From Desulfurococcaceae archaeon MEX13E-LK6-19 (GTDB lineage Archaea; Thermoproteota; Thermoprotei_A; Sulfolobales; Desulfurococcaceae), in contig CP072660.1 in NCBI GenBank assembly GCA_029637525.1, forward strand, positions 310,001 through 374,000: DNA of 64,000 nucleotides, read 5' to 3'. Shown here piece by piece: positions 8,700-27,773 of this stretch. The translations under genes were made by a program, and so were the position numbers. A model generated the notes under the pieces. The model worked only from the letters and a program-made list of their open reading frames with translations, was not told the DNA's origin and did not search any database. Each line of letters begins with the position of its first letter. Positions within the stretch are counted from its first letter, which is position 1.

Positions 8700-8755
8700 A
8701 GAAGGAAGGCGGCCCGATCCCAGCTTGGGGCGGCTGCGGGGCCTCGCGGACCCCA
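8700..8755. repeat. Left attachment site (56-bp direct repeat)
   Basis: Identical to 27718-27773. It carries the last 48 bases of 5S rRNA in antisense and eight bases beyond the 3' end, and represents the original chromosomal 3' end of the gene left behind on integration. It also encodes the first residues of the left integrase fragment. It contains the 17-bp imperfect palindrome of 5S helix IV at 8738-8754, a plausible strand-exchange region. Confidence 0.93.
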
Positions 8756-9726
8756 AGATCATGAATTCGTTTAACACTTTCAATCCCCCTGGTTTAACAC
8801 CTAGTTTAACGCCTTCCATGAGCCAGTTTAACACCGTGGTCTCACAGACCGTTAAACAGCTTTTAAGTGAAGAAACATTTAGGCAAGGATTGAGACAATA
8901 TATGTTCTCTAGATACGTTAGAGACGATGCTAGGCAGAGATATAACTATCTCGTGAAGCATCTAGTTGTTCTCGACGACCCAATGTATATAACAAGGCTT
9001 ACCCCTAGCCAGGCAGCGCATTTGCTCAGGGGAATAGCTGCTCTAAGAGAATACTTGAGGCTCTTGGGCTACAGTGGTATAGCCGAGGCGCTGGACTACT
9101 ACCTTAAACAACTAAGGAAACTTGCCCCGAGGAAACGATCCATTAGGCTGCTCGACTACGAGGCTGATAAAAGCATTATAGACAAGGCTCTCGAGCAGCT
9201 CAGGAAAGCCATTGTCTCACGTTCCATACTATGGAGTCTACTAGCGCTAATAGACTTCTACACAGGCCTGAGGGGAACAGAGCTTGTATGGCTATGGACT
9301 CGGTGGAGTAGCCTCAGGAAAATACACCATAACAGCACAGTGATAGTCGAGTTAGGCTACGAGAGAAGAAGCAAGAAAGCATGGATAACGATGATGCCCA
9401 TGGAGCTAGCAGCTATCTTGGATACATATATGTATAAGGTAACAGTAAACACCATCCAGGACGCAAGAGATAGGCTAGGCATCAGGTGGAGCTTGTTCAG
9501 GAAAGCACACCTAGCAATACTAAGCACGAAACTCATGGAGCACGAGATAGATCTACTCCAAGGAAGGATGGGAAAGATCACTGTGAAACACTATACTAAA
9601 CACCTTAGGGAAATAGCCGACAAATACATAGAAGCATACAAGCCCTACCTACCGCTTCTCAAGCTCTGGCACGAGAGCAAGAAGACGGCTAAACAAGAAC
9701 AAGAAGTCCTCGCCCTTCCTCGTTAG
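8725..9726 (+). CDS. SSV-type tyrosine integrase, C-terminal part (int(C))
   Basis: Catalytic portion of the integrase, cut from its N-terminus by integration. The open frame starts at a TTG inside the att site; the first ten residues are encoded by the 5S-derived repeat. Catalytic features are visible: TGLRGTEL (Arg183 in this numbering), KKAW (Lys217/218), RKAHL (Arg259/His262), GRMGKITVKHY with Arg281 and the nucleophile Tyr290. Joined in frame to the 83 codons at 27524-27772 it gives about 406 residues. Whether this truncated form is translated is unknown. Its 3' end overlaps the convergent winged-helix gene by 78 bp. Confidence 0.9.
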   Translation: MGRLRGLADPKIMNSFNTFNPPGLTPSLTPSMSQFNTVVSQTVKQLLSEETFRQGLRQYMFSRYVRDDARQRYNYLVKHLVVLDDPMYITRLTPSQAAHLLRGIAALREYLRLLGYSGIAEALDYYLKQLRKLAPRKRSIRLLDYEADKSIIDKALEQLRKAIVSRSILWSLLALIDFYTGLRGTELVWLWTRWSSLRKIHHNSTVIVELGYERRSKKAWITMMPMELAAILDTYMYKVTVNTIQDARDRLGIRWSLFRKAHLAILSTKLMEHEIDLLQGRMGKITVKHYTKHLREIADKYIEAYKPYLPLLKLWHESKKTAKQEQEVLALPR

Positions 9727-9915
9727 CCTTAGCCTTCTCTCCCTACCAGTCTCCTCTTCTAGCAAACCCCAAGACACCGCCAAGTCTACATAACGTGTAA
9801 TAGTAGAAGCACTACCGCCAACACACCTAACAAGCTGCGTAACATTCATAGAACCACTATCCCTGACACAAACAAGCATCCTATAAAGAATAACCAAATC
9901 AATACCCCTAGGCAC
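9649..9915 (-). CDS. Winged-helix DNA-binding protein
   Basis: 88 residues with a MarR/ArsR-like winged helix: ILYRMLVCVRDSG, MNVTQLVRCVGGSASTITRYVDLAVSWGLLEEE (recognition helix) and a wing with RRLRLTRKGEDFLFLF. GTG start. Its last 78 bp run antisense through the integrase C-terminal codons, a compact arrangement that could couple expression of the two. A 37-bp inverted repeat lies 42 bases upstream of its start. Likely an element-encoded regulator, perhaps of the integrase; target unknown. Confidence 0.72.
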   Translation of the reverse strand: MPRGIDLVILYRMLVCVRDSGSMNVTQLVRCVGGSASTITRYVDLAVSWGLLEEETGRERRLRLTRKGEDFLFLFSRLLALVPELEKR

Positions 9916-9957
9916 AGCAACTACACCACATGTAATACTCGTAAAACAGAGAAAAAG

Positions 9958-9994
9958 GTGTTAGGTAGAAGTCTGGCGGGTTTCTACCTAACAC
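9958..9994. repeat. 37-bp inverted repeat, copy 1
   Basis: Arms GTGTTAGGTAGA and TCTACCTAACAC around a 13-bp spacer; here pairing extends one base further into the spacer on each side. It lies between two divergently oriented genes, so it is upstream of both. Confidence 0.92.
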
Positions 9995-10032
9995 CCAATT
10001 TAAAAACCAAAGCAAATAGATCAACAATAGGG

Positions 10033-10245
10033 GTGGTTCTACTGGAGCAGCAGAGCACTCTTATTATTAGGGATTTGCAGAGCAGTGTCAGGCTTCTCAG
10101 GAAGCTCAGCAAGCACGGTACTGTTATTTATGCTGCGACAATAGTTGTTGTAAGGATTAATCCCAGGGTTTTAGGTGGCCTCATTAAAAAGAATAAGAAT
10201 GTTAAGGTGGTTGATTCAGTTGTTGTTTTACCGCAGCTAGCTTAG
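10033..10245 (+). CDS. Small unknown protein
   Basis: The frame is open from 9958, but that start falls inside the inverted repeat. GTG 10033 or CTG 10042 (behind GGGGTGG) are better candidates, giving about 67-70 residues ending in VVDSVVVLPQLA. The sequence alternates charged and hydrophobic segments (LIIRDLQSSVRLLRKLSKHGTVIYAATIVVVRINPRVL) and could form a small alpha/beta or ribbon-helix-helix-like domain, but I do not recognise it. It converges with the ATPase gene, overlapping by nine bases. A real gene is likely because codon usage and composition match its neighbours. Confidence 0.5.
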   Translation: MVLLEQQSTLIIRDLQSSVRLLRKLSKHGTVIYAATIVVVRINPRVLGGLIKKNKNVKVVDSVVVLPQLA

Positions 10246-11058
10246 GTTCTTTATTTCCGTAGAAGTATATGTATAGCCCTCGACGAGCTCTTCTGGAATA
10301 AGCCCTTTCTCAACAAGTACTTTGCCCAGCATTTTCTTCGCTAGCCTATGGTATCCGTCTCTGATTATGGAGTAAGCCCTGTACACTGGGTCAGGCAGAT
10401 AGACCACGTATTGATCGGAGCCTACGTCCTCGGTGTACAGCTTATTCATGTAATCACTCTCATCGAGCACGACGATATGGGCTTCAGCAACCTTCACCTT
10501 CAAGCCATTGATTATTTTCGTGCCTACACGCCTGACCCTGACATGCAGCGACTCGGGGTCCTCACGAACCCTGGGTGGAAGCTTCTTCTTTGTAGGAGTC
10601 GTGAACACTAGTACCTTGACATCGGTCCTCGAGGTATCAAACCAGTTCAAGAACCAGATCAGGTAGGGCCTGAGCTCTGGATGATACCAGAAATAAGTGC
10701 TAAGCCAGACGCCAGCATCATCCCATATAATTATATCATTATACTTCTTCAACGCATCAAAGAACTCTTTCGGCGTATGTACAATCCTATTAAGAGCCTC
10801 GAGGTAGGCCTCACCGCAGCTAAGCCCTTGTCTCATGAAGTATTGTGCTACAACCTTGAGTGCATAAGTAGACTTGCCAGCACCCCTGCGGCCAGTAATA
10901 ATAATTGGCTGCAGTTCATTACACTCAATAGCATCAAAAATAAACGATAACAGCAAGTAGTTCCTCTTCCTACACTCAACACCAACTATATCCTCATAAG
11001 CCTTCTCAAGCTCTTCACGCTCCTCATCCGAGAGAACAGAGAATACCTCAAGACTCAT
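10237..11058 (-). CDS. P-loop ATPase of the integrated element
   Basis: 273 residues. Walker A is IIITGRRGAGKST (about residue 53-65), Walker B is NDIIIWDDAG with the adjacent Asp pair, and VKVLVFTTPTKK resembles a sensor-1 strand. The protein lacks further domains I can name. ATPases of this size are common in crenarchaeal viruses and plasmids, where they serve in replication initiation, partitioning or DNA packaging; which applies here is not visible. A TTG at 11067 is also in frame; ATG 11058 is preferred. It is the last gene of a five-gene minus-strand operon and overlaps the preceding gene by 11 bp. Confidence 0.82.
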   Translation of the reverse strand: MSLEVFSVLSDEEREELEKAYEDIVGVECRKRNYLLLSFIFDAIECNELQPIIITGRRGAGKSTYALKVVAQYFMRQGLSCGEAYLEALNRIVHTPKEFFDALKKYNDIIIWDDAGVWLSTYFWYHPELRPYLIWFLNWFDTSRTDVKVLVFTTPTKKKLPPRVREDPESLHVRVRRVGTKIINGLKVKVAEAHIVVLDESDYMNKLYTEDVGSDQYVVYLPDPVYRAYSIIRDGYHRLAKKMLGKVLVEKGLIPEELVEGYTYTSTEIKNLS

Positions 11059-11416
11059 AGTCCTCAACCCTAGTCAGCCGCTGCACCTTCTTCCTAACAA
11101 GCAGGCCACGCCTATCAAGCAGCGAAGTAATCTTGTAGAGTAACTCGAGAAGCTGTCCACGATCCATGTTCTCCACATCTTTAATAGTCTCCAAAGGATT
11201 AAGATCGCTGCCATAAACATCCTCGGGAATAGAAGCAAGCAAAGCCTGCATCATACTCCTTGCATGAGCAAGCCTCATCTTATACTCATACTCTGGCAAC
11301 ATACTATGGATACCACCAAGGGCCCTAGCAACATCAATCAATAAGCCGCCAAGTTCATAACCATAAACTTGCTCCTTATACTTAACCCTATACTCGAGAC
11401 TCAACAGAATCACCAA
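11048..11416 (-). CDS. Hypothetical helical protein
   Basis: 122 residues, mainly helical (LGGLLIDVARALGGIHSML, MRLAHARSMMQALLASI, MDRGQLLELLYKITSLLDRRGLL) with a basic C-terminus. No family recognised. The GTG start overlaps the stop of the 39-codon gene upstream (TGGTGA) and its end overlaps the ATPase start, so translational coupling is likely and it may act together with the ATPase. Confidence 0.68.
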   Translation of the reverse strand: MVILLSLEYRVKYKEQVYGYELGGLLIDVARALGGIHSMLPEYEYKMRLAHARSMMQALLASIPEDVYGSDLNPLETIKDVENMDRGQLLELLYKITSLLDRRGLLVRKKVQRLTRVEDYES

Positions 11417-11529
11417 TAAGCCTTGATTACATCGTAGCCGTTTCTCTCTGCAATAGCTTCTACTTCTTTGAGGAGCATCCTAACATCCTTTGATCTTCTC
11501 TTTTTCTTTAGCACTATGTGGATGTACAT
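11410..11529 (-). CDS. 39-residue basic peptide
   Basis: A short frame read directly from the sequence: ATG at 11529, stop at 11410-11412. It begins MYIHIVLKKKRRSKDVRMLL and ends NGYDVIKAYW. It starts two bases after the stop of the Lys-rich protein gene and its stop overlaps the next GTG start, so it sits exactly in the only gap of an otherwise continuous operon. The first half is strongly basic. Function unknown; the tight fit is the evidence that it is a gene. Confidence 0.6.
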   Translation of the reverse strand: MYIHIVLKKKRRSKDVRMLLKEVEAIAERNGYDVIKAYW

Positions 11530-11531
11530 GG

Positions 11532-12207: not shown

Positions 12208-12345
12208 ACAAGATCACCTATGCTACAAATATAAATATTATATGTAATAGGGAGCTGGCTGGAGCACAACATCATTTCTATGGCTAGCTCTACCCAGCTC
12301 GTTATTTCCTATAAAACACGAGATCAACAATTTGGGGAAAGTATC

Positions 12346-13488
12346 ATGACAAGTTCCAAGATCGCCAGAACTCTTGCCTTAATCCTAGTAGTTTTTGCCA
12401 TAATAATAGCACCAATAACCCCATTAGCCCAGACCCTCGAGGAAGAAAAGATAGTTGTTGTAAAAACCTATGACTTAAGCGATCCTACTATTCTTAGTAA
12501 CTTAACAACATATACGTATGATAAGGTCAGCAATGTACTACAGGCCTATGATAACACGACAACAAAAATAGCTGTTGATGGATACCTTTATCTCTCTGAC
12601 TTAAACACAAGCGATAACTATGTTCCAGCAATAGCATTCGACTTACAAGCTCCATCCCTAGACCTTAACAACAACGAGAAAATACTGTATGGATTACTTT
12701 TAAGCAACATCCTTGGCTCTGTAGCCATTGGCACGGTTACAGTTAATGAGACTACAGGACAAGTACTCAACGCCACTTTCATCAAGGTAGAGCCTTATTC
12801 AGACAACATCATTGTTGTCAGGACAGCAAGTGATGTAGTGATCTACACTGGTATAGGCAAGTTCTCTGTTCCAAGCGGCAAAGTAATGATTTACACCGAA
12901 AGCGAGGCCAGCATCCAGGGTATAAGCGAGATCGAACTAAGATCATTAGCTACACCACCAGCAGACTACCAATTAGTTAGGAGTGGCTCAGGCGAGGCCA
13001 CAGTCACCATAAGTGCAACAGGCACGGTAAGAGTATACTTTGACGAGACACATAGCACTGGTGATGCCGATCTATTTATCTTCGATTCAAATAACCCATA
13101 CTTCGCCGAGGCATCAGAGCAATGGAGCTGGAGCACACTACTAATGAGATGTAACCAATTCGCCTTTGCAGACGGTAGACCACAGTTTGTAACAATTGAA
13201 GCTCATGGACAGCTGAAATTCGTTGTAAAGAACTACCCAGGAAGCTATCTTGGTACACAGCCACAGTCATGGAACATCGCCATAGCGGTCCTATCCTCTT
13301 CAGAGACACCATCACCAACATTCACTATACAGAACGAGCAACCTAGCCAAACCCAGACACCTTCTGGTGTAGACTGGAGTAGACTAGCAAGCTACTTTAC
13401 AGGCAATCAGACTGCTATGACGGCTACCATCGTGATCATAATCATCATAGTGATGTTGCTGGCAGTAATTCTGCTATTAAGAAAGTAA
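12346..13488 (+). CDS. Exported glycoprotein-like membrane-anchored protein
   Basis: 380 residues from ATG 12346, which has GGGGAAAG upstream; an open frame to 12280 has no ribosome binding site. An N-terminal signal peptide (ARTLALILVVFAIIIAPI, then PLAQ) is followed by an extracellular region rich in Asn/Thr sequons and beta strands; a segment near the middle (TGTVRVYFDETHSTGDADLFIFD) recalls pre-peptidase C-terminal-like beta domains. A Ser/Thr/Pro/Gln linker and a C-terminal helix (MTATIVIIIIIVMLLAVILLL) anchor it outward. First gene of the membrane cassette. It could be a virion spike or cell-surface protein; the evidence is topology only. Confidence 0.78.
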   Translation: MTSSKIARTLALILVVFAIIIAPITPLAQTLEEEKIVVVKTYDLSDPTILSNLTTYTYDKVSNVLQAYDNTTTKIAVDGYLYLSDLNTSDNYVPAIAFDLQAPSLDLNNNEKILYGLLLSNILGSVAIGTVTVNETTGQVLNATFIKVEPYSDNIIVVRTASDVVIYTGIGKFSVPSGKVMIYTESEASIQGISEIELRSLATPPADYQLVRSGSGEATVTISATGTVRVYFDETHSTGDADLFIFDSNNPYFAEASEQWSWSTLLMRCNQFAFADGRPQFVTIEAHGQLKFVVKNYPGSYLGTQPQSWNIAIAVLSSSETPSPTFTIQNEQPSQTQTPSGVDWSRLASYFTGNQTAMTATIVIIIIIVMLLAVILLLRK

Positions 13489-13513
13489 TGATGCGGTGGT
13501 GGAAGTGAAGTGC

Positions 13514-14209
13514 ATGAAGACAATACTACCAATAACACTGTTGTTATTAGTACTCATATCACCAGCCATTATTGTTGCTGATGAAACAAGGCTTGCATGG
13601 GAAGACAGCGGCTATGACTTAGCACCAGGATATAGATACACTATTTCACTCCACGCCGAGGTATCGTGGACACATGATCTAGCACTGGCTGCTATCGAGG
13701 CTGGACCAGTCAAGGTTGCCGTGGAGATCTTTGACACTAATCCACCAGGCTATGTCACGCTTGGCACCAGGGTCTATGTGAACAACAGGGTCAGGTACAG
13801 CGGCGATGAAGTACAGTTTGGCCCAGGAAGCGGCGGCTCATACGATATCTCAGTGCAAATAAAGGTTGATTGGGACGGTAATGGTGAAGTCTATGTACAT
13901 GGACGTAGAGTAGCAGCATTCACTATCGAGAATCCCTGGGATATACAGCAGTTCACAGACAGGCGCAGTGGCCTCGGATACACGATACAGTCAAGTATTG
14001 TAATAGACTATCAGAGACTCCCACCGCCGTCAAGTGGTGACTCTAACACAATTATCGTACAACAGCCAAGCGAAAACCCGCAAGGCTTCGACTTCTTGGC
14101 CAGCCTTGGTGCTGCCACAGTTGTTTTTGTCCTCATACTGCTCCTGGGGATCGGCGGGATAATGCTCCTGATAGTCTTTAGTCAGGCTAGGCGTAGGGGG
14201 TGGATCTAG
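13514..14209 (+). CDS. Exported beta-rich protein with C-terminal membrane helix
   Basis: 232 residues. Signal peptide MKTILPITLLLLVLISPAII, then a beta-rich ectodomain (DLAPGYRYTISLHAEVSW, VYVNNRVRYSGDEVQFGPGSGG), a linker PSSGDSNTIIVQQPSENP, and a membrane helix (LGAATVVFVLILLLGIGGIMLLIVF) before RRRGWI. The frame opens at 13496 but ATG 13514 with GGTGGAAGTGAAG upstream fits better. The stop touches the ATG of the next gene. Same type-I topology as its two neighbours, so the three are probably components of one surface assembly. Confidence 0.76.
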   Translation: MKTILPITLLLLVLISPAIIVADETRLAWEDSGYDLAPGYRYTISLHAEVSWTHDLALAAIEAGPVKVAVEIFDTNPPGYVTLGTRVYVNNRVRYSGDEVQFGPGSGGSYDISVQIKVDWDGNGEVYVHGRRVAAFTIENPWDIQQFTDRRSGLGYTIQSSIVIDYQRLPPPSSGDSNTIIVQQPSENPQGFDFLASLGAATVVFVLILLLGIGGIMLLIVFSQARRRGWI

Positions 14210-15943
14210 ATGCCCAGGCGTATAGGAACAAACATACTACCCTGGATCATACTGGGACTGATAATGCTAGCCATAGTACTAATACCAACCATAATGATAT
14301 ACAACATATATAACCAAGTAACAAGACCACTCCAGGGACTACCACTAGTCCACGAGATACCTGCTAGCCAAGTCCAGGTGACAGTACAAACACTGAGCTT
14401 GGAGCCAGGCCAGGTCTATGAGCTGCAACTAACCAGTGATAACAGCCTAGTGTTCACGAAGACAAACAGGATACTAACAGAAGATATGACACTAGAACAA
14501 ACAACACTAAGTAGCGGCGACGTAATAGCACCACATCTATACGACTGGTTGTTTCCTGATGGTTATATGGATTGGATTGCCTACGACTATACAGAAACTA
14601 TAAGCGGTAGTTTTGTTGTTGAGGCTAGGGCTAGTGTCTTTGACACTAATATCAGGCATGTATTTAATACGAGGGCAAGGTCTGGCGTTGCTAATTATGA
14701 CTATAGCTTTGACTTCAAGTTCCAGAACGGTAATAGAATTCATGGCGATATAGGTAATGGCACGACATGGCTTACAACTGTTGCCGACGTTTATCCATTC
14801 TACTATGAGACCCATAGATTCTACAACATAACATACGAGGTCTACGAGACAGGCTACAAGATATATGTTGATGGCGAGCTAAAAGCTAGTGGAACATATG
14901 ACGTAAGCACGCCATTACTAACAGACGTAAATCATTATCCTATCGTCGGCGGCTCAATACCAACTCTCTCAACAGTATACGATAGAGTATTCTATGGATA
15001 CATAAGCTATGTAAGGGTGAAACAAGGGAGTACATTAAAGCTACTTCTTGACCCAATTGCGTTCAATGGAACACATTACTTCGACATAGTATCAGGCGCT
15101 GTTGGTACAGTAACAGGCGATGTACAACGAGTACCAGCCGAGCATACATGGCTATGGCTAATCAAGTCTCTAGAAACTGACGGTAAACTACATATTAAGT
15201 TTGTGCCACCAGGTGCTGTTCTTAGGATCACGTATAATGATCAGGTTTATGAGTGGCGTATTGATGGTAAGGCTAATGCTGCTGGGTTGATAGAGGACTA
15301 TGCTATTGACTTGTTGTCAGTCTTTGGTACTACAACATTAAGCAATGCTAAGGTTGAGCTTATATGGACCAATAAGGTCAGGTTCTATGCACCACCAGGG
15401 TTCACAGTAAAGGTGTCTAATGAGAACCTTACTATTGCTAAGAGAGTACCTGAGAACGCTAGCTATGTGGATATAGCGCTTGAGCCTGGCGTATATACTG
15501 TTGAGCTTCTTGCTGACCGTCAGGTTGAGCCGCATGTCAGCTTAATGCGTGATAACAACTATTATGTTATTGTTGTCCGTGACGAAAACTACTACGCTCT
15601 AGCAAACGCCACAGTGGTAGTCTATGCCAACGGCGTTGAGGTTGCCAGGGGTGTAACGGATGCTACTGGCAGATTCATAGTGCCAGCTAGCGAGCTCAAC
15701 AACACTGATACAATTAGAGTAGAAGTACTGGCACTATCAGCAGGCACATACTACACTACATCAAGAACCATAGAGCTAACCCAGGCAGCACCAGCAACCC
15801 AAACTCCTAGTCAAAACCAGCCAGTTAGCAGCGGCTCAGAATACATAATAGCCATTGATAGAACCAGGATAACAACCACCATAGTGATCATACTAGCCAT
15901 AATGTTTCTTGCAGTACTAGTTATAGCCTTCAGGAAAAGGTGA
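14210..15943 (+). CDS. Large exported protein with LamG-like and CarboxypepD-reg-like domains
   Basis: 577 residues. An N-terminal membrane helix (LPWIILGLIMLAIVLIPTIMI) without clear cleavage site, then a probable concanavalin/LamG-like domain at about 125-235 (YNITYEVYETGYKIYVDGELK is characteristic), a beta region, a carboxypeptidase-regulatory-like fold near 450-510 (ALANATVVVYANGVEVARGVTDATGRF), a Thr/Gln/Pro linker and a C-terminal helix (TTTIVIILAIMFLAVLVIAF). The LamG-like part suggests carbohydrate or surface binding. With helices at both ends it may be anchored twice. Candidate host-recognition protein; inference. Confidence 0.75.
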   Translation: MPRRIGTNILPWIILGLIMLAIVLIPTIMIYNIYNQVTRPLQGLPLVHEIPASQVQVTVQTLSLEPGQVYELQLTSDNSLVFTKTNRILTEDMTLEQTTLSSGDVIAPHLYDWLFPDGYMDWIAYDYTETISGSFVVEARASVFDTNIRHVFNTRARSGVANYDYSFDFKFQNGNRIHGDIGNGTTWLTTVADVYPFYYETHRFYNITYEVYETGYKIYVDGELKASGTYDVSTPLLTDVNHYPIVGGSIPTLSTVYDRVFYGYISYVRVKQGSTLKLLLDPIAFNGTHYFDIVSGAVGTVTGDVQRVPAEHTWLWLIKSLETDGKLHIKFVPPGAVLRITYNDQVYEWRIDGKANAAGLIEDYAIDLLSVFGTTTLSNAKVELIWTNKVRFYAPPGFTVKVSNENLTIAKRVPENASYVDIALEPGVYTVELLADRQVEPHVSLMRDNNYYVIVVRDENYYALANATVVVYANGVEVARGVTDATGRFIVPASELNNTDTIRVEVLALSAGTYYTTSRTIELTQAAPATQTPSQNQPVSSGSEYIIAIDRTRITTTIVIILAIMFLAVLVIAFRKR

Positions 15944-15949
15944 TCAGAA

Positions 15950-16774
15950 ATGTTTAAACCCAAGCCTTTTTTCTTTCTCACAATAATACTTGTCTTAATC
16001 ATAGCTTCTCCTGTTTTCGCTGAAGACAAAGAAGAGCTTAGGTTCTCTAATGATTGGCTGAAGGGTGTTGCTATTGTTGTTTATCAGAACCAGTATGGTA
16101 CTTGTTTCTGGGTGAACCCCAGTCATGTCGTTACGGCAGCGCATGTTGTGAACAACCAGCCTAACGCTGTTGTGACCATCATAAGGGGTAATGTCCATGC
16201 TAGAGGAGTTGTTGTAGCACTTGATACTCAGAGTGATTTGGCGGTGATATACGTTGAGAACTCTGGCCAGTTTGACAAATACATCTTCCCGCTGGCCGTC
16301 AGGATACCTGAGCCCTCGAGTACAATATACGTTATAGGTTATCCATTCGAGCTACTGCAGATAATGGGTAGCCTCGAGGCTCTTAGCGAGAACCCTAGGA
16401 TTCTCGAGAGCCGTCTAACATGGTCCGCCAATGGCTTGATCGAGCTGGGCGGAATCGTTGATGCTGGCAATAGCGGTGGACCTGTCCTGGACTACTACGG
16501 CAACGTTATTGGTGTCGTGAGCTTTGCGCTGCGTGGCAATGCTGGAGTACTCTACTTCGCCACAACGGTAGGCGCATTGAGAGAACTGCTTAGAGAACAT
16601 GGAATAGCCTACATCGAGGGAACAAGCAGCATACTCCCTGAATCCATAGTACAAGACCCATTCGTGGCAGGCGCAATAGCAGGGGCATCAGCTGGCCTAG
16701 TCCTCGACATACTCATCCTCGCTACAGGCACAGGACTGGGAATACTCATAGCCTCAAAAAGGAGGCGAAGATAA
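15950..16774 (+). CDS. Secreted HtrA-like serine protease, membrane-anchored
   Basis: Trypsin-fold protease with a complete catalytic triad: TAAHV (His65), DTQSDLAV (Asp96) and GNSGGP (Ser175). A signal peptide occupies residues 1-24 and a C-terminal hydrophobic region (AGAIAGASAGLVLDILILATGTGLGILI) precedes RRR, so the protease domain faces the outside. No PDZ domain is present; at 274 residues it is a minimal HtrA/DegP-type core. It stands six bases after the LamG-like gene and two before the next gene, within the structural cassette. It may process the neighbouring surface proteins; this is inferred from position. Confidence 0.87.
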   Translation: MFKPKPFFFLTIILVLIIASPVFAEDKEELRFSNDWLKGVAIVVYQNQYGTCFWVNPSHVVTAAHVVNNQPNAVVTIIRGNVHARGVVVALDTQSDLAVIYVENSGQFDKYIFPLAVRIPEPSSTIYVIGYPFELLQIMGSLEALSENPRILESRLTWSANGLIELGGIVDAGNSGGPVLDYYGNVIGVVSFALRGNAGVLYFATTVGALRELLREHGIAYIEGTSSILPESIVQDPFVAGAIAGASAGLVLDILILATGTGLGILIASKRRRR

Positions 16775-16776
16775 AT

Positions 16777-17895
16777 ATGGATGGCCAGCTTCCAATCGAT
16801 GAACACATTATAGAGCTAATAAAGAAGTATCTTTTCCAGCAGCATCTAGCTAATGAGCCGCAATGGCTTGTATTAACCCTAGCTGCACCCATTATAGCTC
16901 TGCTTTTCTTTATCATCTTGTGGGCTAAGTATAAGGCTCATGTACATGACCTGGTTGATGCTGTGTTCTTTTTCTTCATACCCTATGCCCCTAAACGTAT
17001 GCTGTTGCTGAAGGATCATCTTGGTAATAAGCATGTTTTCTATGATGACGAGATCAAGGTTGCTGGCGGTAAGGATGGCGGGTTTATTGTTCAGGCTGGC
17101 AGCTTTCTAGTGAAGCTCAACGATGACCCATTTGCTTATGCAGAGCCCTTATCATTGATCGATACCAAGATACCTGGTGGCCCAAGCCCCTTCGGCTTGT
17201 TTGTCAGGCAGCTAGTGGCAGTCTATATAATGCTGGCCTTGATAGCACTGAGCTTCGCCAACACAATAGTCGTCACTATGGCTGGCTTCGGCATGCCGCC
17301 TACACCAATAGACCTAGTAGTCTTCAGCGCCCTGGTGTTCTCGCTGGCCTGGCTACTAGCCATACTCGTGAAAGCCTTCAGCCCACAGACACTCTTCACA
17401 AGCATAGTGGTCTCGCACTCAGAGAACAACATAATGCGTGGAATCATACCAGTAGACGCATTCTCGAGCATACCACCAACAAAACTACTAAGCAAACTAA
17501 CCAAGATAGAGATCAACGTAGCTGACTCAGTCAAAGAAGCCTACGAGAAGATAAAGAACATAGTGGGAGACAGCGGTCTAGCAGCAGCAATACTAAGCAC
17601 GATAGGAGAAGTCTACGAGACATGCCATAAGTCACTTGGACTAATCCTCAAGTCAAGATACGATATATCAGTGGCAGCGAAGGCCAGGTACATGCTTGAA
17701 AGAGAAAAGATAGGCCCGTCATGGCTGACCCGATACGCTGGAGTAATAGCGATACTAGCACTAATAGCAATAGCCGTGCTGGCAGCCCTTCTATTGAACA
17801 TACAGGTCCAGCCAGCACAAGTAATCAACGAGACAACCAACACCATCACCTATGTCACCCCTGCACAGCCACCGCCACCACCGATATCGGGCTGA
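16777..17895 (+). CDS. Multi-pass membrane protein, unknown
   Basis: 372 residues. Hydrophobic helices are visible near 30-48 (WLVLTLAAPIIALLFFIIL), 145-170, 180-200 (LVVFSALVFSLAWLLAILV) and near the C-terminus (YAGVIAILALIAIAVLAALLL), with a soluble insert between the first and second and a Pro-rich tail. A central region (ILSTIGEVYETCHKSLGLILKSRYDISVAAKARYML) is helical and charged. I recognise no family. Starts two bases after the protease stop; part of the same transcript. Confidence 0.72.
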   Translation: MDGQLPIDEHIIELIKKYLFQQHLANEPQWLVLTLAAPIIALLFFIILWAKYKAHVHDLVDAVFFFFIPYAPKRMLLLKDHLGNKHVFYDDEIKVAGGKDGGFIVQAGSFLVKLNDDPFAYAEPLSLIDTKIPGGPSPFGLFVRQLVAVYIMLALIALSFANTIVVTMAGFGMPPTPIDLVVFSALVFSLAWLLAILVKAFSPQTLFTSIVVSHSENNIMRGIIPVDAFSSIPPTKLLSKLTKIEINVADSVKEAYEKIKNIVGDSGLAAAILSTIGEVYETCHKSLGLILKSRYDISVAAKARYMLEREKIGPSWLTRYAGVIAILALIAIAVLAALLLNIQVQPAQVINETTNTITYVTPAQPPPPPISG

Positions 17896-17900
17896 TAGCT

Positions 17901-18194
17901 ATGGAGCTGGTCGCAGCTGCAGCATTAGCAGCATTCATGCTATCGATAACCTATGCCTTCGTGAAGATAGCAGAAAGACAAGGAATAGCAAAAGCATTCA
18001 TAGCAGCCCTGATACTAGCAGACCTCTTCGTAATCCTCTTAATGCTACTAGGCATCGACAGACCACTAATCATAATAAAGACAAGACTGGGATCCACGAC
18101 AATAACCTACCTTCAAGTGTTTCTACTGCTAAAAGTACCTTTCACGATATGGAGTATCGTCAATCGAGAACAACTAAGGAGAATACTTGGATGA
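17901..18194 (+). CDS. Small membrane protein with three hydrophobic segments
   Basis: 97 residues from ATG 17901; the frame is open from 17721 but the upstream part is a shadow of the preceding gene. Hydrophobic segments: ELVAAAALAAFMLSITYAF, AFIAALILADLFVILLMLL and TYLQVFLLLKVPFTIW. No catalytic motif. Small multi-helix membrane proteins in such cassettes can be virion membrane proteins; no direct evidence. Confidence 0.66.
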   Translation: MELVAAAALAAFMLSITYAFVKIAERQGIAKAFIAALILADLFVILLMLLGIDRPLIIIKTRLGSTTITYLQVFLLLKVPFTIWSIVNREQLRRILG

Positions 18195-18618: not shown

Positions 18619-18674
18619 CTCTCTTTTTCTAAAACACCTTAGACAAACACGTATAATGTAATTGGTGTATAAAC

Positions 18675-21017: not shown

Positions 21018-21054
21018 GTGTTAGGTAGAACCCTTACACAAATCTACCTAACAC
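21018..21054. repeat. 37-bp inverted repeat, copy 3
   Basis: Perfect 12-bp arms, 13-bp spacer. It lies four bases beyond the stop of the minus-strand gene 21059-21973, a terminator-like position for that gene. Confidence 0.93.
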
Positions 21055-21058
21055 GCAT

Positions 21059-21973
21059 TTATTGTTTCCCGCCCTGTTGCTTAGGGGTAACCTTACCTGC
21101 CTTGATCTTGAATGCCATATATCTTGCTAAGCTGAGAGCAATTTCTTTGGCCAACTCGGCCTCCTTAGGACCACCATACGTCTTATAATGTTCGCCAAAA
21201 TTGCTTAGAAGATGAAAGGAACTATTGGCATAATCATACAAAAGTGTGGCACGGTTTTTGATGTTGTCTACTTTTTCTATGCCCCTAAGATAGTCCCTAA
21301 AACCTTCAGCGACTTTCCTAAAGAATTTGATAGCTTTCTCATAATCCTTTTCAGCATAACTTAAAACACCCACTTTAAGATCCGAAGCAATGTCATTGAG
21401 CCCTATCTCGTAAAGAAGAGAAATTAACCCATGATGCAATAGCGTGTCCTTACACATGTTTACAAGCCTACGGGTAACATCAACTAACCTCTCTGGAGTG
21501 TTCTCCTCATAATATTCTTCAACACTCTCTGGCAAAAGAGAATAAGTTTTTACAGTCGTTTCAGGAGATTGCTTTTCACTCTTATAATAACATTTCAAAC
21601 CAAACAGCTCAATAATAATGTAATATCCTACAGGTATGTCAAAATCCTTGCATAAATCACTGACATCCAAAACTAGATCACCCCTATAAGATAACTTGCC
21701 TTCATACTTGACCTCACTTGCTAGTGGTAATTCATAAAACTTATTAATGCTCCTTAAAAGTCCCCCCTTCGGCGTATACACCTCATGAACAAATACATAT
21801 GCCTCTGCCTTATGTACTCTATTAGTAAGATAACGAGGATTAAGATAATGGGGATATCTATGAACAACTTCCTCAACATTAATCACTAGACGCAAAGCTA
21901 CATTCTTTTCCTCCAAATCGAAACCAGTAAAAACTGGCATATACTTAACAGGTTTAACAAATATGAACGGCAT
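21059..21973 (-). CDS. Unknown protein, beta N-terminus and helical C-terminus
   Basis: 304 residues. The first about 120 residues look beta-rich (NVALRLVINVEEVV, AEAYVFVHEVY, YYIIIELFGLKCYY); the rest is helical (RLVDVTRRLVNMCKDTLLHHGLISLLYEIGLND, YEKAIKFFRKVAEGFRDYL). The C-terminal region NSSFHLLSNFGEHYKTYGG with its paired His recalls the small helical C-terminal domains seen in some abortive-infection proteins, but this is weak. Its start coincides with the stop of the wHTH gene upstream, so the regulator and this protein form a two-gene operon. Confidence 0.68.
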   Translation of the reverse strand: MPFIFVKPVKYMPVFTGFDLEEKNVALRLVINVEEVVHRYPHYLNPRYLTNRVHKAEAYVFVHEVYTPKGGLLRSINKFYELPLASEVKYEGKLSYRGDLVLDVSDLCKDFDIPVGYYIIIELFGLKCYYKSEKQSPETTVKTYSLLPESVEEYYEENTPERLVDVTRRLVNMCKDTLLHHGLISLLYEIGLNDIASDLKVGVLSYAEKDYEKAIKFFRKVAEGFRDYLRGIEKVDNIKNRATLLYDYANSSFHLLSNFGEHYKTYGGPKEAELAKEIALSLARYMAFKIKAGKVTPKQQGGKQ

Positions 21974-22239
21974 TATATCATCCCCGCCAGCTCTAGTAAT
22001 GCTTTAGCGTGTTCAGCCGCCTTGCGCCCCTTCTCTGTTAGTTTTATGATTTTTCTTACTGGTGGCCCTTGTTCTATTTCTTCAACAACGAAGCCTAGTT
22101 TTTGTAGTAGGTCCACGGCTCTTCTTACGGTTCTGTAGTTGAGTCCTGTTTCTCTGCTTATTGTTAGAAGAGCTGAGCCATCGTGATCCAGTAGGTATGC
22201 TAATACTTTTAGTGGCCCGTTGAGTCCTCGTTCACTCAA
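21973..22239 (-). CDS. Winged-helix regulator
   Basis: 88 residues from TTG 22239 (GGTG seven bases upstream); a frame to 22272 runs through the operator-like palindromes and is less likely. The winged helix is clear: GPLKVLAYLLDHDGSALLTISRETGLNYRTVRRAVDLLQKLGFVVEE then a wing and TEKGRKAAEHAKALLELAG. Located next to several TGTACA palindromes in the divergent promoter region, so autoregulation and control of the plus-strand operon are plausible. First gene of a two-gene minus-strand operon. Confidence 0.8.
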   Translation of the reverse strand: MSERGLNGPLKVLAYLLDHDGSALLTISRETGLNYRTVRRAVDLLQKLGFVVEEIEQGPPVRKIIKLTEKGRKAAEHAKALLELAGMI

Positions 22240-22250
22240 CCATAAGCACC

Positions 22251-22363
22251 ATGTATAATATACATAGTACAAGTATTACAGTATGATCTGCTAGTTGTAC
22301 ATTGTACAGAGAGCTTATATACCTAGCACATTGTACAATATACACAGAGGTGAATATGTACAT
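22251..22363. promoter_or_regulatory. Divergent promoter with TGTACA palindromes
   Basis: Four inverted repeats lie between the two divergent operons: a 15-bp one at 22251-22265 (ATGTATAATATACAT), TGTACATTGTACA at 22296-22308, ATTGTACAAT at 22330-22339, and ATGTACAT at 22356-22363. A TATA box (CTTATATAC, about 22314-22322) for the plus-strand operon sits between the second and third. A dimeric regulator bound here would cover the TATA box. The bound protein is unknown; the wHTH and the RHH proteins next to it are the obvious candidates. Confidence 0.65.
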
Positions 22364-22604: not shown

Positions 22605-22616
22605 GGGTGATCCGTA

Positions 22617-22955: not shown

Positions 22956-22961
22956 AGAGCC

Positions 22962-23684
22962 ATGAACAAAGAACAACTACTCAAGCTAGCCGAGGCACTC
23001 AGGCCAGCAGTGGCTGCCAGCGACCATAGTGTCCAGTCGTTGATATACCAGTGGAACCTCGGCGACCTACTAGAGCACTTGACGAGAGAATGTGATGCCA
23101 AGGTTTGCCTCACCGTATCCGATCTGGTGTATTGTAGCCAGAAGTACTGGTTTAGGCTACAGCATCCCTTGCCTGTTATCGAGCAGAATATTTATGGTCC
23201 ATGGGGTGTTTATGGTAGGCTTATCCATCTTGGTCTCGAGCATCTTCTCAGAGAGAAATGGAATGGTGTTAGAATCGAAGTCGAGGTTGAGAGAAGGCTT
23301 TGGCTGAACAATGGAGAGCCTACACTAGTTAAGATCACGGGGCGCATAGACGCCCTCAGGGTTACTGATGGCGGTGAAGTTGTTGTCTATGAGTTCAAGA
23401 GTTCTAGAGGCGATAGCGAGCAGCCTAAGCAGCCGCATATCATGCAGCTAAGAATCTATATGCTCATGGCTTCAGCGACAAAAGGCTACTTGGTATACGT
23501 TAATCCAGACCGTGTAGCAGAATACGAGATCAACAACCCTATGAACGACGTGGATCTAAAACAACTTGTCAAAGAAACCATCGAGAACACCAAGCACCCA
23601 CGCTGGGACTGGGAATGCAGCTATTGTCCATACAACATGATGTGTCCCTACAAACACTTCTCAAACAACTACAAGAGGAGGTGA
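22962..23684 (+). CDS. Cas4-like PD-(D/E)XK nuclease with Fe-S Cys motif
   Basis: 240 residues. The RecB/Cas4 arrangement is complete: an N-terminal single Cys (SDLVYCSQKYWFR), GRLIHLGLEHLL (active-site His helix), KITGRIDALRV (catalytic Asp), VVYEFKSSRG (catalytic E-x-K), a QLRIYMLMA helix (QxxxY motif), and C-terminal CSYCPYNMMCPYK with three more Cys for a 4Fe-4S cluster. Expected to be a DNA exonuclease. Viral and plasmid Cas4 homologues occur without CRISPR loci, and no other cas gene is present here. Part of the regulator operon, six bases after the preceding gene. Confidence 0.85.
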   Translation: MNKEQLLKLAEALRPAVAASDHSVQSLIYQWNLGDLLEHLTRECDAKVCLTVSDLVYCSQKYWFRLQHPLPVIEQNIYGPWGVYGRLIHLGLEHLLREKWNGVRIEVEVERRLWLNNGEPTLVKITGRIDALRVTDGGEVVVYEFKSSRGDSEQPKQPHIMQLRIYMLMASATKGYLVYVNPDRVAEYEINNPMNDVDLKQLVKETIENTKHPRWDWECSYCPYNMMCPYKHFSNNYKRR

Positions 23685-23691
23685 TCGAGTG

Positions 23692-23943
23692 ATGAGGCAT
23701 GGAATTGTTGATTGTCGTAAATGCGAGTACTTCGTTCCCATTGAGAAGTTTGAGGAAAACGATATGCTGGATCTTCTCGAGGAAGCAGAGATCTATCGGG
23801 CCAAGTATGGTGTTGAGATACTGGGATGGTGCAGTAGGTTCCATAGATTCGTAAGATACTATGTTGGCAGATGCTATGGCTTCAAACCAAAAGAGTATCA
23901 GCCACCAAGACCATTGACTGACTTCCTTAAGGTGAAACAATGA
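23692..23943 (+). CDS. Small Cys-rich protein
   Basis: 83 residues from ATG 23692 (GTG 23689 is an alternative) behind AGGAGGTGA. CRKCEYF near the start, GWCSRF and GRCYGFKP later give four Cys that could bind zinc or an Fe-S cluster. The layout resembles the C-terminal Cys module of the preceding Cas4-like protein and it may be a partner. No family recognised. Stop overlaps the next start (ATGA). Confidence 0.66.
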   Translation: MRHGIVDCRKCEYFVPIEKFEENDMLDLLEEAEIYRAKYGVEILGWCSRFHRFVRYYVGRCYGFKPKEYQPPRPLTDFLKVKQ

Positions 23944-24314
23944 CCAGGTTCGCTAGAGTCATCAAGCAACAGCTCCAGGCCACCGATAACACTAGTGTTA
24001 GTAGTGCTAGCGATCTCGAGTACTTGCTGCAGACTCCTAGTCTCTATAGAACCTTGCTGCTTATCCATGAGTACCTAGTTGTTAATAAGCGCAGGGGCTT
24101 TACTTATGATGGTATAAAGAGCTATGCTGCCTCGAGGAGGTTCTACAGCGAGTACACTGATCGGACTCTTGACCGTGCTATCAGGAAGCTCGCAGAGCTA
24201 GGCTACCTAAACAGGGTTCATCCAAGGGATAACAAGAAGAAAGTGATCTTTGTTCCAACAGAGAAGTTCCAAAGAGTTATCGAGGAGAGAAGGGGGCTTC
24301 TCGACGATGGCTGA
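23940..24314 (+). CDS. Winged-helix DNA-binding protein
   Basis: 124 residues: a flexible N-terminus and a helix-turn-helix with wing (RTLLLIHEYLVVNKRRGFTYDGIKSYAAS, DRTLDRAIRKLAELGYLNRVHPRDNKKKVIFVPT). Starts within the ATGA overlap of the Cys-rich gene and overlaps the next gene by eight bases, so translation is coupled. Could be a replication-initiator-like or regulatory protein; the sequence shows only DNA binding. Confidence 0.72.
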   Translation: MTRFARVIKQQLQATDNTSVSSASDLEYLLQTPSLYRTLLLIHEYLVVNKRRGFTYDGIKSYAASRRFYSEYTDRTLDRAIRKLAELGYLNRVHPRDNKKKVIFVPTEKFQRVIEERRGLLDDG

Positions 24315-24729: not shown

Positions 24730-24971
24730 TGGCTGAAAAGGATAAGAAGCATGATGTTGAAGATGGGGAATTTGATGTTTATCAGTTTTGTCTAGACAAC
24801 TTTGATGACAGTGTGAGATGTGATTGTGATGGATGCTGGACAACAGACGACGTCTTGAATGCTATGTGTAGTGAGATCTGGGAAGATATTGCATACGAGC
24901 TTGGCATGCTAGATTACTGTGATGAAGATGAAGAATTCCTTGACGAAGATGATGAAGATCTAGACTGGTGA
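24729..24971 (+). CDS. Highly acidic small protein
   Basis: 80 residues, of which about 31 are Asp or Glu and only five or so are basic; the C-terminal 17 residues are almost purely acidic. Five Cys occur, three as CDCDGC. Charge and size fit a DNA-mimic protein (anti-restriction or anti-nuclease type) or an acidic partner of a basic protein, but no known family is recognised. Embedded in the coupled operon (overlap of one base with the upstream stop). Confidence 0.65.
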   Translation: MAEKDKKHDVEDGEFDVYQFCLDNFDDSVRCDCDGCWTTDDVLNAMCSEIWEDIAYELGMLDYCDEDEEFLDEDDEDLDW

Positions 24972-24976
24972 AAACA

Positions 24977-25078
24977 ATGTTGTTTGAAGTTTGTATGTTT
25001 TTGTTCGCCTTTACGCTCCTGGGTGTCCTGGGTCTCGCTGTGAAGTTGCCTGTACTCGAGGAGGGTGGTGGGCTATGA
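24977..25078 (+). CDS. 33-residue single-helix membrane peptide
   Basis: A short frame read from the sequence: ATG at 24977, TGA at 25076-25078. It starts MLFEVCMFLFAFTLLGVLG and ends in an EEGGGL tail. The stop overlaps the start of the next gene (CTATGAGG), which fills the gap between two otherwise coupled genes. One hydrophobic segment. Function unknown. Confidence 0.5.
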   Translation: MLFEVCMFLFAFTLLGVLGLAVKLPVLEEGGGL

Positions 25079-25728
25079 GGCATGCGTATGATTATTCGTT
25101 GAAGCTGGCTGCTAGGCAGGCTGTGATAGCCGAGATAACGAGGAGGTTCATAAAGAGTGTGAAGAGGAACTGGAGCCTAGTTGAAGGCTATAAGAGGATG
25201 AGGCTGGGTAGTCCGCTGAGAATAGATTATGATGAACGGAGGACTATACTGGACATCTATATAGAGCTGCCAGCCACGAGGCCAGTCAGGTACCTTGTAT
25301 ACATATCTATGCAGACAAGCAGGCCGCTGAGCCCCAGCCAGACCAGGACAAAGATACTCAGGCTCCTGGAGAGGAAAACAAGGTATGTCACGGGAATGGA
25401 TACAGCAAAGTACATCCTATGCCCCGCAGGATATACCAGAGGAGCACTAGAGATGCTCAGGACAGCAAGAATAATCCCCATGAAGAACATGCACGAGATA
25501 ATAAAGAACATGGCCAAGTACTTCAAGAACAGATACACCAAGCTCATTGATGCCTTACGTGGAAAACGACTCTACGGAGAACTCATGCTCCTAGCCTACA
25601 TCCTCAGAGAAATAACAAAAGAACTAGGAGAAACAATAGCCAACGATCCACTAGAACAATACCTCAAATACTACCCATCACCACTCATCCTCGCAGAACA
25701 AGGCATAGAAATCCCAGCACCACATTAG
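25075..25728 (+). CDS. Unknown basic protein ending the regulator operon
   Basis: 217 residues from ATG 25075; an open frame to 24991 is a shadow of the small membrane peptide. Basic helical start (LKLAARQAVIAEITRRFIKSVKRNW), then a beta hairpin-like stretch (RRTILDIYIELPATRPVRYLVYISMQ) that could be a nuclease-type core with an Asp-Glu pair, then helices. I do not recognise a family. Last gene before the repeat cluster; the stop is 34 bases before repeat copy 4. Confidence 0.66.
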   Translation: MRHAYDYSLKLAARQAVIAEITRRFIKSVKRNWSLVEGYKRMRLGSPLRIDYDERRTILDIYIELPATRPVRYLVYISMQTSRPLSPSQTRTKILRLLERKTRYVTGMDTAKYILCPAGYTRGALEMLRTARIIPMKNMHEIIKNMAKYFKNRYTKLIDALRGKRLYGELMLLAYILREITKELGETIANDPLEQYLKYYPSPLILAEQGIEIPAPH

Positions 25729-25761
25729 CCGATCCCTTCACTCTTCTAGCTTATTCCATTA

Positions 25762-25798
25762 GTGTTAGGTAGATTCTTACTGGGGTTCTACCTAACAC
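25762..25798. repeat. 37-bp inverted repeat, copy 4
   Basis: Perfect 12-bp arms, 13-bp spacer. First of three copies clustered downstream of the regulator operon; copy 5 begins 51 bases after the start of this one. Confidence 0.93.
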
Positions 25799-25812
25799 TC
25801 TTTACCGTGAAG

Positions 25813-25849
25813 GTGTTAGGTAGACTTCCACTCCACTTCTACCTAACAC
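25813..25849. repeat. 37-bp inverted repeat, copy 5
   Basis: Perfect 12-bp arms, 13-bp spacer, 14 bases after copy 4. Confidence 0.93.
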
Positions 25850-25882
25850 TTGAACCCTGCACCCTGTATCTTTGCTTAAGTG

Positions 25883-25919
25883 GTGTTAGGTAGAGCTCCA
25901 CCCGAATTCTACCTAACAA
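25883..25919. repeat. 37-bp inverted repeat, copy 6
   Basis: 13-bp spacer; the last base of the right arm differs (AACAA instead of AACAC), otherwise complete. It ends the cluster, 33 bases after copy 5. Confidence 0.92.
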
Positions 25920-26227
25920 TAGCATCTATTCCACTCGAGAAGGAACATTGCATTACATATCAACTGATCTAAGACCCTCTGTGATGATATATCAACTGAT
26001 CTCCGATGGAGTGATGGAGTGTTCCAGGCTCTGGCCTACCTAGCCTGATCGAAGAAGCAGGTAATCAGCATGTATATCAACGATCTATAGATGAGTCATC
26101 GCCATCGCTAGAATATTCTATAGTAATTGTATTAAGAATAGGTCCTGTAGTTACAGTAAGTCATTATAAGAAAGGACTTCTATGACCTTTGGCTTCTATA
26201 ATACTCTTCTTTTAGAGTAGCATCTAA
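25920..26227. other. Gene-free region with short direct repeats, possible origin or partition site
   Basis: About 300 bases without a plausible gene between convergent operons. ATATCAACTGATCT occurs exactly at 25957-25970 and 25989-26002, and a shortened version ATATCAACGATCT at 26074-26086. Together with the three inverted repeats just to the left, the region resembles an iteron-type origin or centromere. It lies far from both element ends. Function is inferred only from repeat density and lack of genes. Confidence 0.55.
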
Positions 26228-26788
26228 TTAGTAATGAATACCTTTTTTTAATTTCTCGAAATAGGCAAGGTTTTTGCATCGTTTCTCGATCTCGCTAAAT
26301 GAGAGCCTATATTCTTTTACAAGATAGTTAAATGTTGAGGCTAGTATTCCAAAATATCTTTGGGCTATCTTTAAGCAGGTCTCCTTGTCTTGGCAGAAGA
26401 GGGTTTTATCGATTGGATGGATAGGCAGAATTTTCTTAACTTCTTTGTCACGTAGTGCTTTGCTTAGAAGCCACATTTTTTGATCAAGTATAAGTAGGTA
26501 TGTTACGTGTTCTTCGCCTATCAGAGACTCCTTGCCAGAGCATTTTCTAACCGTGACGCTTTCTAGTCCTGGATAAATTAACCCATATTCTTTTTTCATA
26601 TAGGCTAAAACACAAGCTATTGCTGCTGCAAGGTCTAGTGCTATTCTTCTTTCATAACCGAACCTGATTGCTCTAATCTGCTTGTATGCTGCAAAAGCTA
26701 TGATTATTGTTGCTAGTGCAGCAAATACTTGGGCAATATTTGCAGCTTCTCTTGATGTAAGAAACGAGATTATATCATTGATTGACAT
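26228..26788 (-). CDS. Hypothetical protein with one membrane helix
   Basis: 186 residues from ATG 26788 (GGGGT upstream); the longer frame reaches into repeat copy 7 and is rejected. A hydrophobic segment near residue 18-36 (AQVFAALATIIIAFAAY) is followed by a soluble helical domain with paired Cys (CSGKES, CQDKETC). No family recognised. Similar layout, one N-terminal helix and a cytoplasmic helical domain, occurs in many small cargo proteins of archaeal elements. Confidence 0.65.
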   Translation of the reverse strand: MSINDIISFLTSREAANIAQVFAALATIIIAFAAYKQIRAIRFGYERRIALDLAAAIACVLAYMKKEYGLIYPGLESVTVRKCSGKESLIGEEHVTYLLILDQKMWLLSKALRDKEVKKILPIHPIDKTLFCQDKETCLKIAQRYFGILASTFNYLVKEYRLSFSEIEKRCKNLAYFEKLKKGIHY

Positions 26789-26829
26789 ACCCCATCTAAT
26801 ACATTTTATCAGTATACAAACATAATAAA

Positions 26830-26866
26830 ATGTTAGGTAGACACTGGCCTGGCTTCTACCTAACAC
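26830..26866. repeat. 37-bp inverted repeat, copy 7
   Basis: First base of the left arm is A instead of G; otherwise 12-bp arms and a 13-bp spacer. It sits 42 bases upstream of the start of the minus-strand gene 26228-26788, the same distance as copy 1 from its wHTH gene. Confidence 0.92.
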
Positions 26867-27119
26867 CTTACACTGTAATTATTATAGTTTTTCATTGGAT
26901 GATTAAAGAGAATGCTACTGAACCTAGCAGGTTCTACTACCTCTTTTAAATGTATGTCTTTAATTATTGTTTTTGTATGGTGGGTTTGTTCTAGGTTTGA
27001 ACGGATTTTTCCTGTTTAGGGCGACAATATTGTCCTCGAATATTTTGTTCACTATATTGTGTTTTCCGTTTCCACATAAAAATATTTTACATTAAGATTA
27101 AAATAAGCTTGGTGGCAAT
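26867..27119. promoter_or_regulatory. Intergenic region with a 12-bp palindrome
   Basis: No gene seen in 253 bases. GACAATATTGTC at 27023-27034 is a perfect palindrome and may be an operator for the small gene at 27120, whose ATG is preceded by GGTGG. An A+T-rich stretch at 27075-27105 is the likely promoter. Confidence 0.45.
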
Positions 27120-27332
27120 ATGAGCAGACAAGAGGTATATGAATATTACCTTGTAGAATGTCAGCATGGAGAATCCCGAATAAAGGTTGCTGTTGAACCT
27201 GATAAGCTAGAAAATGAGATAAAGAGTATTGTCTTTCAGCTTATTGGACCAGTGGAAGAGTCTAAGGTTATTGAAATAGAATGCAAAGTCCGCAAACTAC
27301 GTGCAAAAGTAATATTCGAAGATGAGCAATAA
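27120..27332 (+). CDS. Small hypothetical protein
   Basis: 70 residues, ATG behind GCTTGGTGG. Beta-alpha-beta pattern: YEYYLVECQHGESRIKVAV, helix LENEIKSIVFQLIG, then VIEIECKVRKLRAKVIFEDE. Acidic overall, no family recognised. A gap of 190 bases to the integrase fragment contains the direct repeat GTTATATGG (about 27447 and 27460) in the presumed integrase promoter. Confidence 0.6.
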   Translation: MSRQEVYEYYLVECQHGESRIKVAVEPDKLENEIKSIVFQLIGPVEESKVIEIECKVRKLRAKVIFEDEQ

Positions 27333-27523
27333 GGTGATGTCTATACCTGTTAGTGGGTATAAAATCATTTCAAACTCTTTTTTATGTAAAAATTATTTCT
27401 TCTATTACTTTTTGTGTAATTTTTATGGTATTGGTTTTTAGTTTGTTATATGGGGTTGTTATATGGTCTGTGGGACGGGTTTATTAGGTTTGTTACTTGT
27501 AGTGTAATAGTGGTGTATAACGC

Positions 27524-27773
27524 ATGCCTCACCTACCTTCGCCTGAAGAGCTAAGGGACAACCCTAATCTTTTCTTGAAGCTTATGGACGAGTATAGGAT
27601 AACGCCAAGAGACCTCGGGATCACTAGGGTCTATAAAAGCATGCTTAAGAAGGGCCTCAGGAAACCCAGCCTAGAGTTATGCAGGAAGATGCTTAAGCTA
27701 GTTGAGCAGAAACAAGGAGAAGGAAGGCGGCCCGATCCCAGCTTGGGGCGGCTGCGGGGCCTCGCGGACCCCA
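27524..27773 (+). CDS. SSV-type integrase, N-terminal part (int(N))
   Basis: Codons 1-83 of the integrase, from ATG 27524 to the end of the att repeat. The helical DNA-binding head is ITPRDLGITRVYKSMLKKGL; codons 66-83 (EGRRPDPSLGRLRGLADP) are encoded by the 5S-derived att site. From 27774 the open frame merely runs antisense through the 5S gene to 27871 and is not integrase. In the circular form residue 83 is followed directly by Lys-Ile-Met of the left fragment in the same frame. In this integrated state the protein lacks its catalytic domain. Confidence 0.9.
27718..27773. repeat. Right attachment site (56-bp direct repeat)
   Basis: Identical to 8700-8755. It forms the 3' part of the intact 5S rRNA gene, so integration preserved the gene. 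Its inner end coincides with the helix IV palindrome GGGGCCTCGCGGACCCC (27756-27772). The flanking base identities diverge immediately outside (G/A at the left edge, C/A at the right). Confidence 0.93.

Follow-up and report, generated by a model that had tools for sequence, protein, structure and literature searches.

Archaeal viral integrases of the SSV type, also called suicidal, carry the viral attachment site (attP) within the integrase gene, and this gene is split upon integration (PMC8371274). The tyrosine recombinases of SSV1 and SSV2 (Fuselloviridae) act in this way on a tRNA gene, which is restored in the process, and the cuts made by the SSV1 integrase flank the 7-nt anticodon loop (PMC8371274). 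A recent review of archaeal tyrosine recombinases lists tRNA genes, protein genes, and intergenic sites as their only targets, with rRNA genes unmentioned (PMC8371274). Here, we describe a 19-kb element in a 64,000-nucleotide stretch of the chromosome of the thermophilic Desulfurococcaceae archaeon MEX13E-LK6-19 (GenBank CP072660.1, positions 310,001 to 374,000; hereafter, the window, numbered from its first base). The element is very probably an integrated archaeal virus whose SSV-type integrase used the 5S rRNA gene as chromosomal attachment site (attB), with crossover at helix IV and the gene rebuilt. It shares with SSV1 and SSV2 an att site inside a tyrosine recombinase gene, the splitting of that gene, and the restoration of an RNA gene, but its target is a 5S rRNA gene, whereas theirs is a tRNA gene.

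Results

The element is bounded by two exact 56-bp direct repeats, 8700-8755 (attL) and 27718-27773 (attR), neither assigned to a strand, and their spacing of 19,018 bp gives its length. In agreement with the initial annotation, each repeat consists of 5S nucleotides 87-134 (48 nt, the 3′ part) followed by eight downstream bases. attR lies within a full 5S gene and attL stands alone, so the left copy is a displaced 3′ piece and the gene was restored at the other end. The only 5S gene detected by Rfam in the window (RF00001, 27733-27852, minus strand, 63.6 bits against a gathering score of 38) corresponds to a restored gene at 27726-27859; these coordinates are those given initially, with the correction that the gene is read from the minus strand, which places the element on its 3′ side. 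A search of the whole genome (1.91 Mb, single contig) for 5S sequence returned one full copy, the 56-bp fragment, and nothing else; the target is therefore the sole full-length 5S gene. No tRNA gene was found near 8700 or 27773, so the usual attB of SSV-type integrases is absent here, although a tRNA target is usual for this class and not a defining trait. On the chromosomal side, a B recognition element (BRE)/TATA-like promoter of the 5S gene, GAAAAACTTAAAA (27886-27898, minus strand), is untouched by integration, and a similar element precedes the 5S gene in relatives of the same family.

The two ends of the element carry the two parts of a split integrase, as was first proposed. The N-terminal part, int(N) (27524-27773, plus strand), enters the 5S att repeat without a change of frame and in the orientation opposite to the 5S gene, and homologs of it are found at 5S and tRNA genes elsewhere. 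The catalytic part, int(C) (8756-9726, plus strand), belongs to an open reading frame (ORF; 8725-9726) that begins inside the opposite repeat and matches an integrase profile (phrog_5127, 2e-15). Joining int(N), one copy of the repeat, and int(C) yields a single in-frame protein of 406 amino acids that crosses the 56-bp repeat, which places the att site inside the integrase gene; the 5S segment of this frame, read antisense, is translated as PDPSLGRLRGLADP. The fused protein matches PF16795 (Phage_integr_3, "Archaeal phage integrase") with an E value of 5.9e-9, above the curated cut-off, and candidate catalytic residues are R256, K290/K291, R332, H335, and Y363, which by analogy would fill the roles of the R-K-R-H/W-Y set of archaeal tyrosine recombinases. 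The att site inside the gene, the split into two parts, and the recombinase domain are features of an SSV-type integrase, and the fused enzyme is predicted to be active as a recombinase. A second, different integrase-like gene is present elsewhere in the same genome (L128, G000:C1:265128-265520).

Searching genomes across the whole order with the integrase (coded G000 for the window genome, G063, and so on) revealed 5S-associated cases in nine genomes from four families, the window genome included; the integrase fragments that the initial annotation had suggested looking for beside 5S genes were found in at least eight further genomes. G063, from a different family, holds a complete 16.3-kb element with a 45-bp repeat, the intact copy of which is the 3′ part of 5S. 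Its int(N) and int(C) are 15 kb apart and join in frame into a protein of 454 amino acids. The two integrases are ~50% identical and their att sequences differ, each being exact for the 5S gene of its own host. Because residues merely translated from 5S could mislead the search, a follow-up used integrase residues 1-66 alone, and int(N) pieces were found directly adjoining the 3′ end of 5S in G172, G155, G158, G159, and G021. In G151, a displaced 5S fragment is joined in frame to the start of int(C), and G025 carries a decayed element of ~2.7 kb with two partial copies and a 35-bp repeat that includes 5S sequence. It is scarcely conceivable that a 5S duplication or an assembly artifact chanced to flank a mobile region, as the repeat reconstitutes an in-frame integrase and the same arrangement recurs in separate, unrelated assemblies with different repeat sequences. 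Together with the exact repeats and the in-frame fusion, this independent recurrence supports the proposal of 5S integration by an SSV-type integrase.

Some candidate cases were discarded. Matches in G056 and G076, at first taken as int(N) beside 5S, retained no N-terminal part once the 5S-derived residues were removed; a second 5S piece in G121 (63 nt) had no integrase nearby and was not counted; and in G066, G096, and G028, the additional 5S copy was near full length in the search alignment and hence is no att fragment. As a separate observation, two copies of the 5S 3′ end in G158 (L106/L154, contigs C484 and C489) agree over a further 22 bases past the gene, within int(N) sequence, a pattern that would fit insertion of a new element next to an older int(N) fossil.

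Occupied and empty sites could be compared in the genus of G151, as suggested in the initial annotation. The chromosomal sequence that follows the displaced fragment in G151 (ATTAATTC...) is the usual downstream flank of 5S in other species of the genus, and five genomes of that genus (G153, G113, G154, G101, and G152) have a single, unoccupied 5S gene. Relatives without the element therefore carry one 5S copy rather than both. In the window, the sequence to the right (27888-29287) keeps its synteny with 5S throughout the family.

The nearest relatives of the window integrase target tRNA genes. G113 carries a 14.6-kb element at tRNA-Ala whose 46-bp repeat spans the 5′ half of the gene; int(N) pieces lie upstream of tRNA genes in G158, G153, G118, G028, G215, and G025, and at the 3′ halves of tRNA genes in G110, G015, and G177. 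The SSV-type integrases at tRNA-Ala, -Ile, -Thr, and -Gly genes of Desulfurococcales (G113, G177, G158, G153, G110, and G015) belong to the same sequence clade and have the same split arrangement, but their attB is one half of a tRNA gene, either 5′ or 3′, and they fall on the other side of the catalytic-domain tree. That tree sets the tRNA users apart (94/99) from the three 5S users, with the 5S group itself weakly supported (48/61). The tree of the short N-terminal part is weak, and a single 5S clade is neither shown nor rejected by it (p-AU, the approximately unbiased test, 0.16). The SSV1 and APOV1 integrases were left out, being too distant to place. In G177, an int(N)-like piece directly follows int(C) (L112, contig C88, 4982-9135) and another int(N) lies beside tRNA-Ala, which suggests stacked or successive integrations.

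We propose helix IV of 5S rRNA as the recombination core. It is a 17-nt palindrome of 5-7-5 geometry, GGGGT-CCGCGAG-GCCCC (27756-27772, minus strand; same sequence at 8738-8754). The identity shared by the repeats starts one base before helix IV in the window genome and in G063, and exactly at its 7-nt loop in G151; in tRNA-using relatives it stops at the anticodon arm, and for the integrases of SSV1 and SSV2 the limit of identity likewise falls at a stem-loop whose loop has 7 nt. Given these limits and the cuts of SSV1 around its loop, the 7-nt loop of helix IV is likely the overlap region, and cleavage would take place there.

In the proposed mechanism, the element's suicidal tyrosine recombinase would use the 5S gene as attB. 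Within the integrase gene of the circular form, the 3′ part of the host 5S gene would be present as a copy, read antisense as part of the protein. The attP of the circle would recombine with the chromosomal gene at helix IV, whose 5-7-5 palindrome has the geometry of a tRNA anticodon arm. Integration would break the integrase gene, leaving int(N) and int(C) apart, and the element would therefore be locked in, while a complete 5S gene would be rebuilt at the same time. The chromosome would retain the promoter and the 5′ part of the gene, and the virus would contribute the last 48 nt and TTCCTTCT, whose pyrimidine-rich sequence may act in termination. The restored 5S gene is expected to be functional.

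Several observations weigh against this reading or parts of it. No known virus integrase in the phage collection was matched by tblastn, and no solved structure (PDB) was matched either. Searches of IMG/VR with the integrase alignment and with the protease of the element returned no relatives. The left flank of the element has undergone rearrangement compared with relatives, with 7.8 kb between pyruvate kinase (1-930) and attL; in relatives this gene follows the 5S gene within ~0.7-3.5 kb, so the sequence at 931-8699 is not in ancestral order and the exact empty site of the window strain was not seen. This 7.8-kb stretch was considered as an older element and rejected, as it holds ordinary host genes, including MBL/beta-CASP, sodium:sulfate symporter, KaiC-like, and TrmB-like genes, and no further 5S fragment. 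Moreover, several int(N) pieces beside 5S are decayed, and some could therefore stem from one old event. Carried further, this would make all the 5S-linked integrase pieces of the order the remains of one ancient integration inherited vertically, and the window element an unusual survivor. The many decayed pieces in the family and the poorly resolved N-part tree would agree with such a history, but complete and displaced copies carry the 5S sequence and flank of their own host, relatives of the same genus are empty, and the window and G063 integrases, ~50% identical, come from different families and from elements of different content. We consider a single ancient event very unlikely.

The two other contrary points concern the core. 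Palindromes of 5-7-5 geometry in which four or more of the five pairs form occur six times in the 5S gene, so helix IV is not singled out by its geometry, and the repeat identity in G025 is limited to 35 bp, the last 23 nt of 5S and 12 flanking bases, and falls short of helix IV. Both would fit a crossover at another point of the common 45-56 bp, such as the palindrome CCCAAGCTGGGATCGGG (5S nt 113-129), which lies inside the repeat; the limit at helix IV would then merely reflect the need to restore the gene. However, G025 is a decayed remnant; in the window genome, G063, and G151, whose att sequences differ, identity begins no more than one base from helix IV or at the loop itself; and the tRNA-using relatives show the corresponding limit, at the anticodon arm. 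With element and target unchanged, a crossover outside helix IV is thus unlikely in our view, and the helix IV core put forward in the initial annotation gains support without being proven.

The other genes of the element indicate that it is most likely a provirus, judging from sequence similarity. A DnaA-like replication initiator ATPase of the SSV1 B251/APOV1 orf19 type (10237-11067, minus strand; phrog_5484, 3.9e-32) matches SSV1, SSV-Lassen, and APOV1 by tblastn and is a trait shared with Fuselloviridae and Sulfolobus super-elliptical virus (SSEV). A putative virion module (12280-18194, plus strand) includes genes starting at 12280, 13496, and 14210 (membrane/lectin-like), a trypsin-like protease at 15950, and membrane proteins at 16777 and 17721, and it is conserved in the G063 5S element and in a provirus of G056. 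The last three genes match ORFs of SSEV (MN539721), which is listed under Fuselloviridae and has in common with the element the protease-like gene, two adjacent membrane-protein genes, and a DnaA-like gene. SSEV differs in being a 15.4-kb virus with no annotated integrase (all its products are labeled "hypothetical protein"), and the other module genes are not shared at this sensitivity. The provirus reading follows from the protease and two further genes held in common with SSEV and from the DnaA-like ATPase held in common with SSV1 and APOV1. The latter (Guttaviridae), a provirus of Aeropyrum pernix, is likewise found in Desulfurococcales and has an SSV-type integrase and a DnaA-like protein, but its target is tRNA-Leu (PMC5882108).

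No element protein matched the SSV1 coat proteins in a phmmer comparison with the SSV1 ORFs, and several genes have no known relatives, so the element could instead be an integrative plasmid or a virus-derived remnant. We regard this as a minority possibility that deserves some weight, as two other elements conserve the putative virion module, which has signal or membrane segments and a trypsin-like protease, and a virus genome contains matches to three of the module's genes. A provirus, then, remains our preferred reading, and the element is predicted to form virions. Its further genes encode a winged-helix regulator (21973-22272, minus strand) that matches an SSV1 ORF and, in an iterated profile search, SSEV and APOV1 ORFs; a Cas4-like PD-(D/E)XK nuclease (22962-23684, plus strand; PF12705, 9.2e-16; phrog_1706, 1.2e-22); a winged-helix regulator related to APOV1 orf1 (23940-24314, plus strand; E 3.7e-11); and a conserved protein (24991-25728, plus strand; phrog_17932) with a relative next to the G063 element.

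The G056 provirus (L158/L159, G056:C16 ~202534-219525), from the same genus code as G063, has the same virion-like module as the window element in combination with another target: its ends are marked by a 72-bp repeat at tRNA-Leu(GAG), next to a gene that resembles int(C) at only 28%. Modules and targets have therefore been exchanged between elements. A further int(N)-like fragment lies near tRNA-Val in G056 (21679-21855 of the joined stretch). In the G063 element, the genes that are separate in the window at 13496, 14210, and 15950 form one long open frame (L028, 11629-14901). Outside the element, Rfam reports a tRNA match over 159 nt at 50279-50437 that ARAGORN does not, probably an intron-containing tRNA gene.

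Discussion

Integration of an SSV-type element into an rRNA gene is new relative to the literature we searched, in which this type of integrase is reported almost only at tRNA genes. A thaumarchaeal survey does not name an rRNA target, and the summary of TIGER/Islander gives tRNA/tmRNA genes, protein-coding genes, and intergenic sites, with rRNA absent from that list. No precedent for 5S as an integration target was found in the papers searched, which were open-licence, so an older report is possible; candidate papers on Campylobacter, Staphylococcus, and Francisella dealt with other subject matter and were rejected. The split arrangement is already known, and the 5S target is what sets this case apart; the proposed mechanism appears good as far as sequence comparison goes.

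Beyond the window element, we lean toward a dedicated lineage of 5S-specific suicidal integrases to which helix IV would look like an anticodon arm and which would have integrated repeatedly across several families of Desulfurococcales, each time rebuilding an essential, often single-copy rRNA gene. As integration interrupts and restores the only full-length 5S gene of the cell, the virus would have to carry an exact piece of the rRNA gene of its host.

Whether non-tRNA targets carry the dyad symmetry of tRNA genes was left open in 2021 (PMC8371274, section 19), and the set of natural 5S sites makes this question testable. These integrases may require a short palindrome, spaced by 7 bp, in a conserved RNA gene, and not a tRNA as such. 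In addition, int(N) fossils and displaced 5S fragments provide a simple signature for proviruses that tRNA-based island finders would miss.

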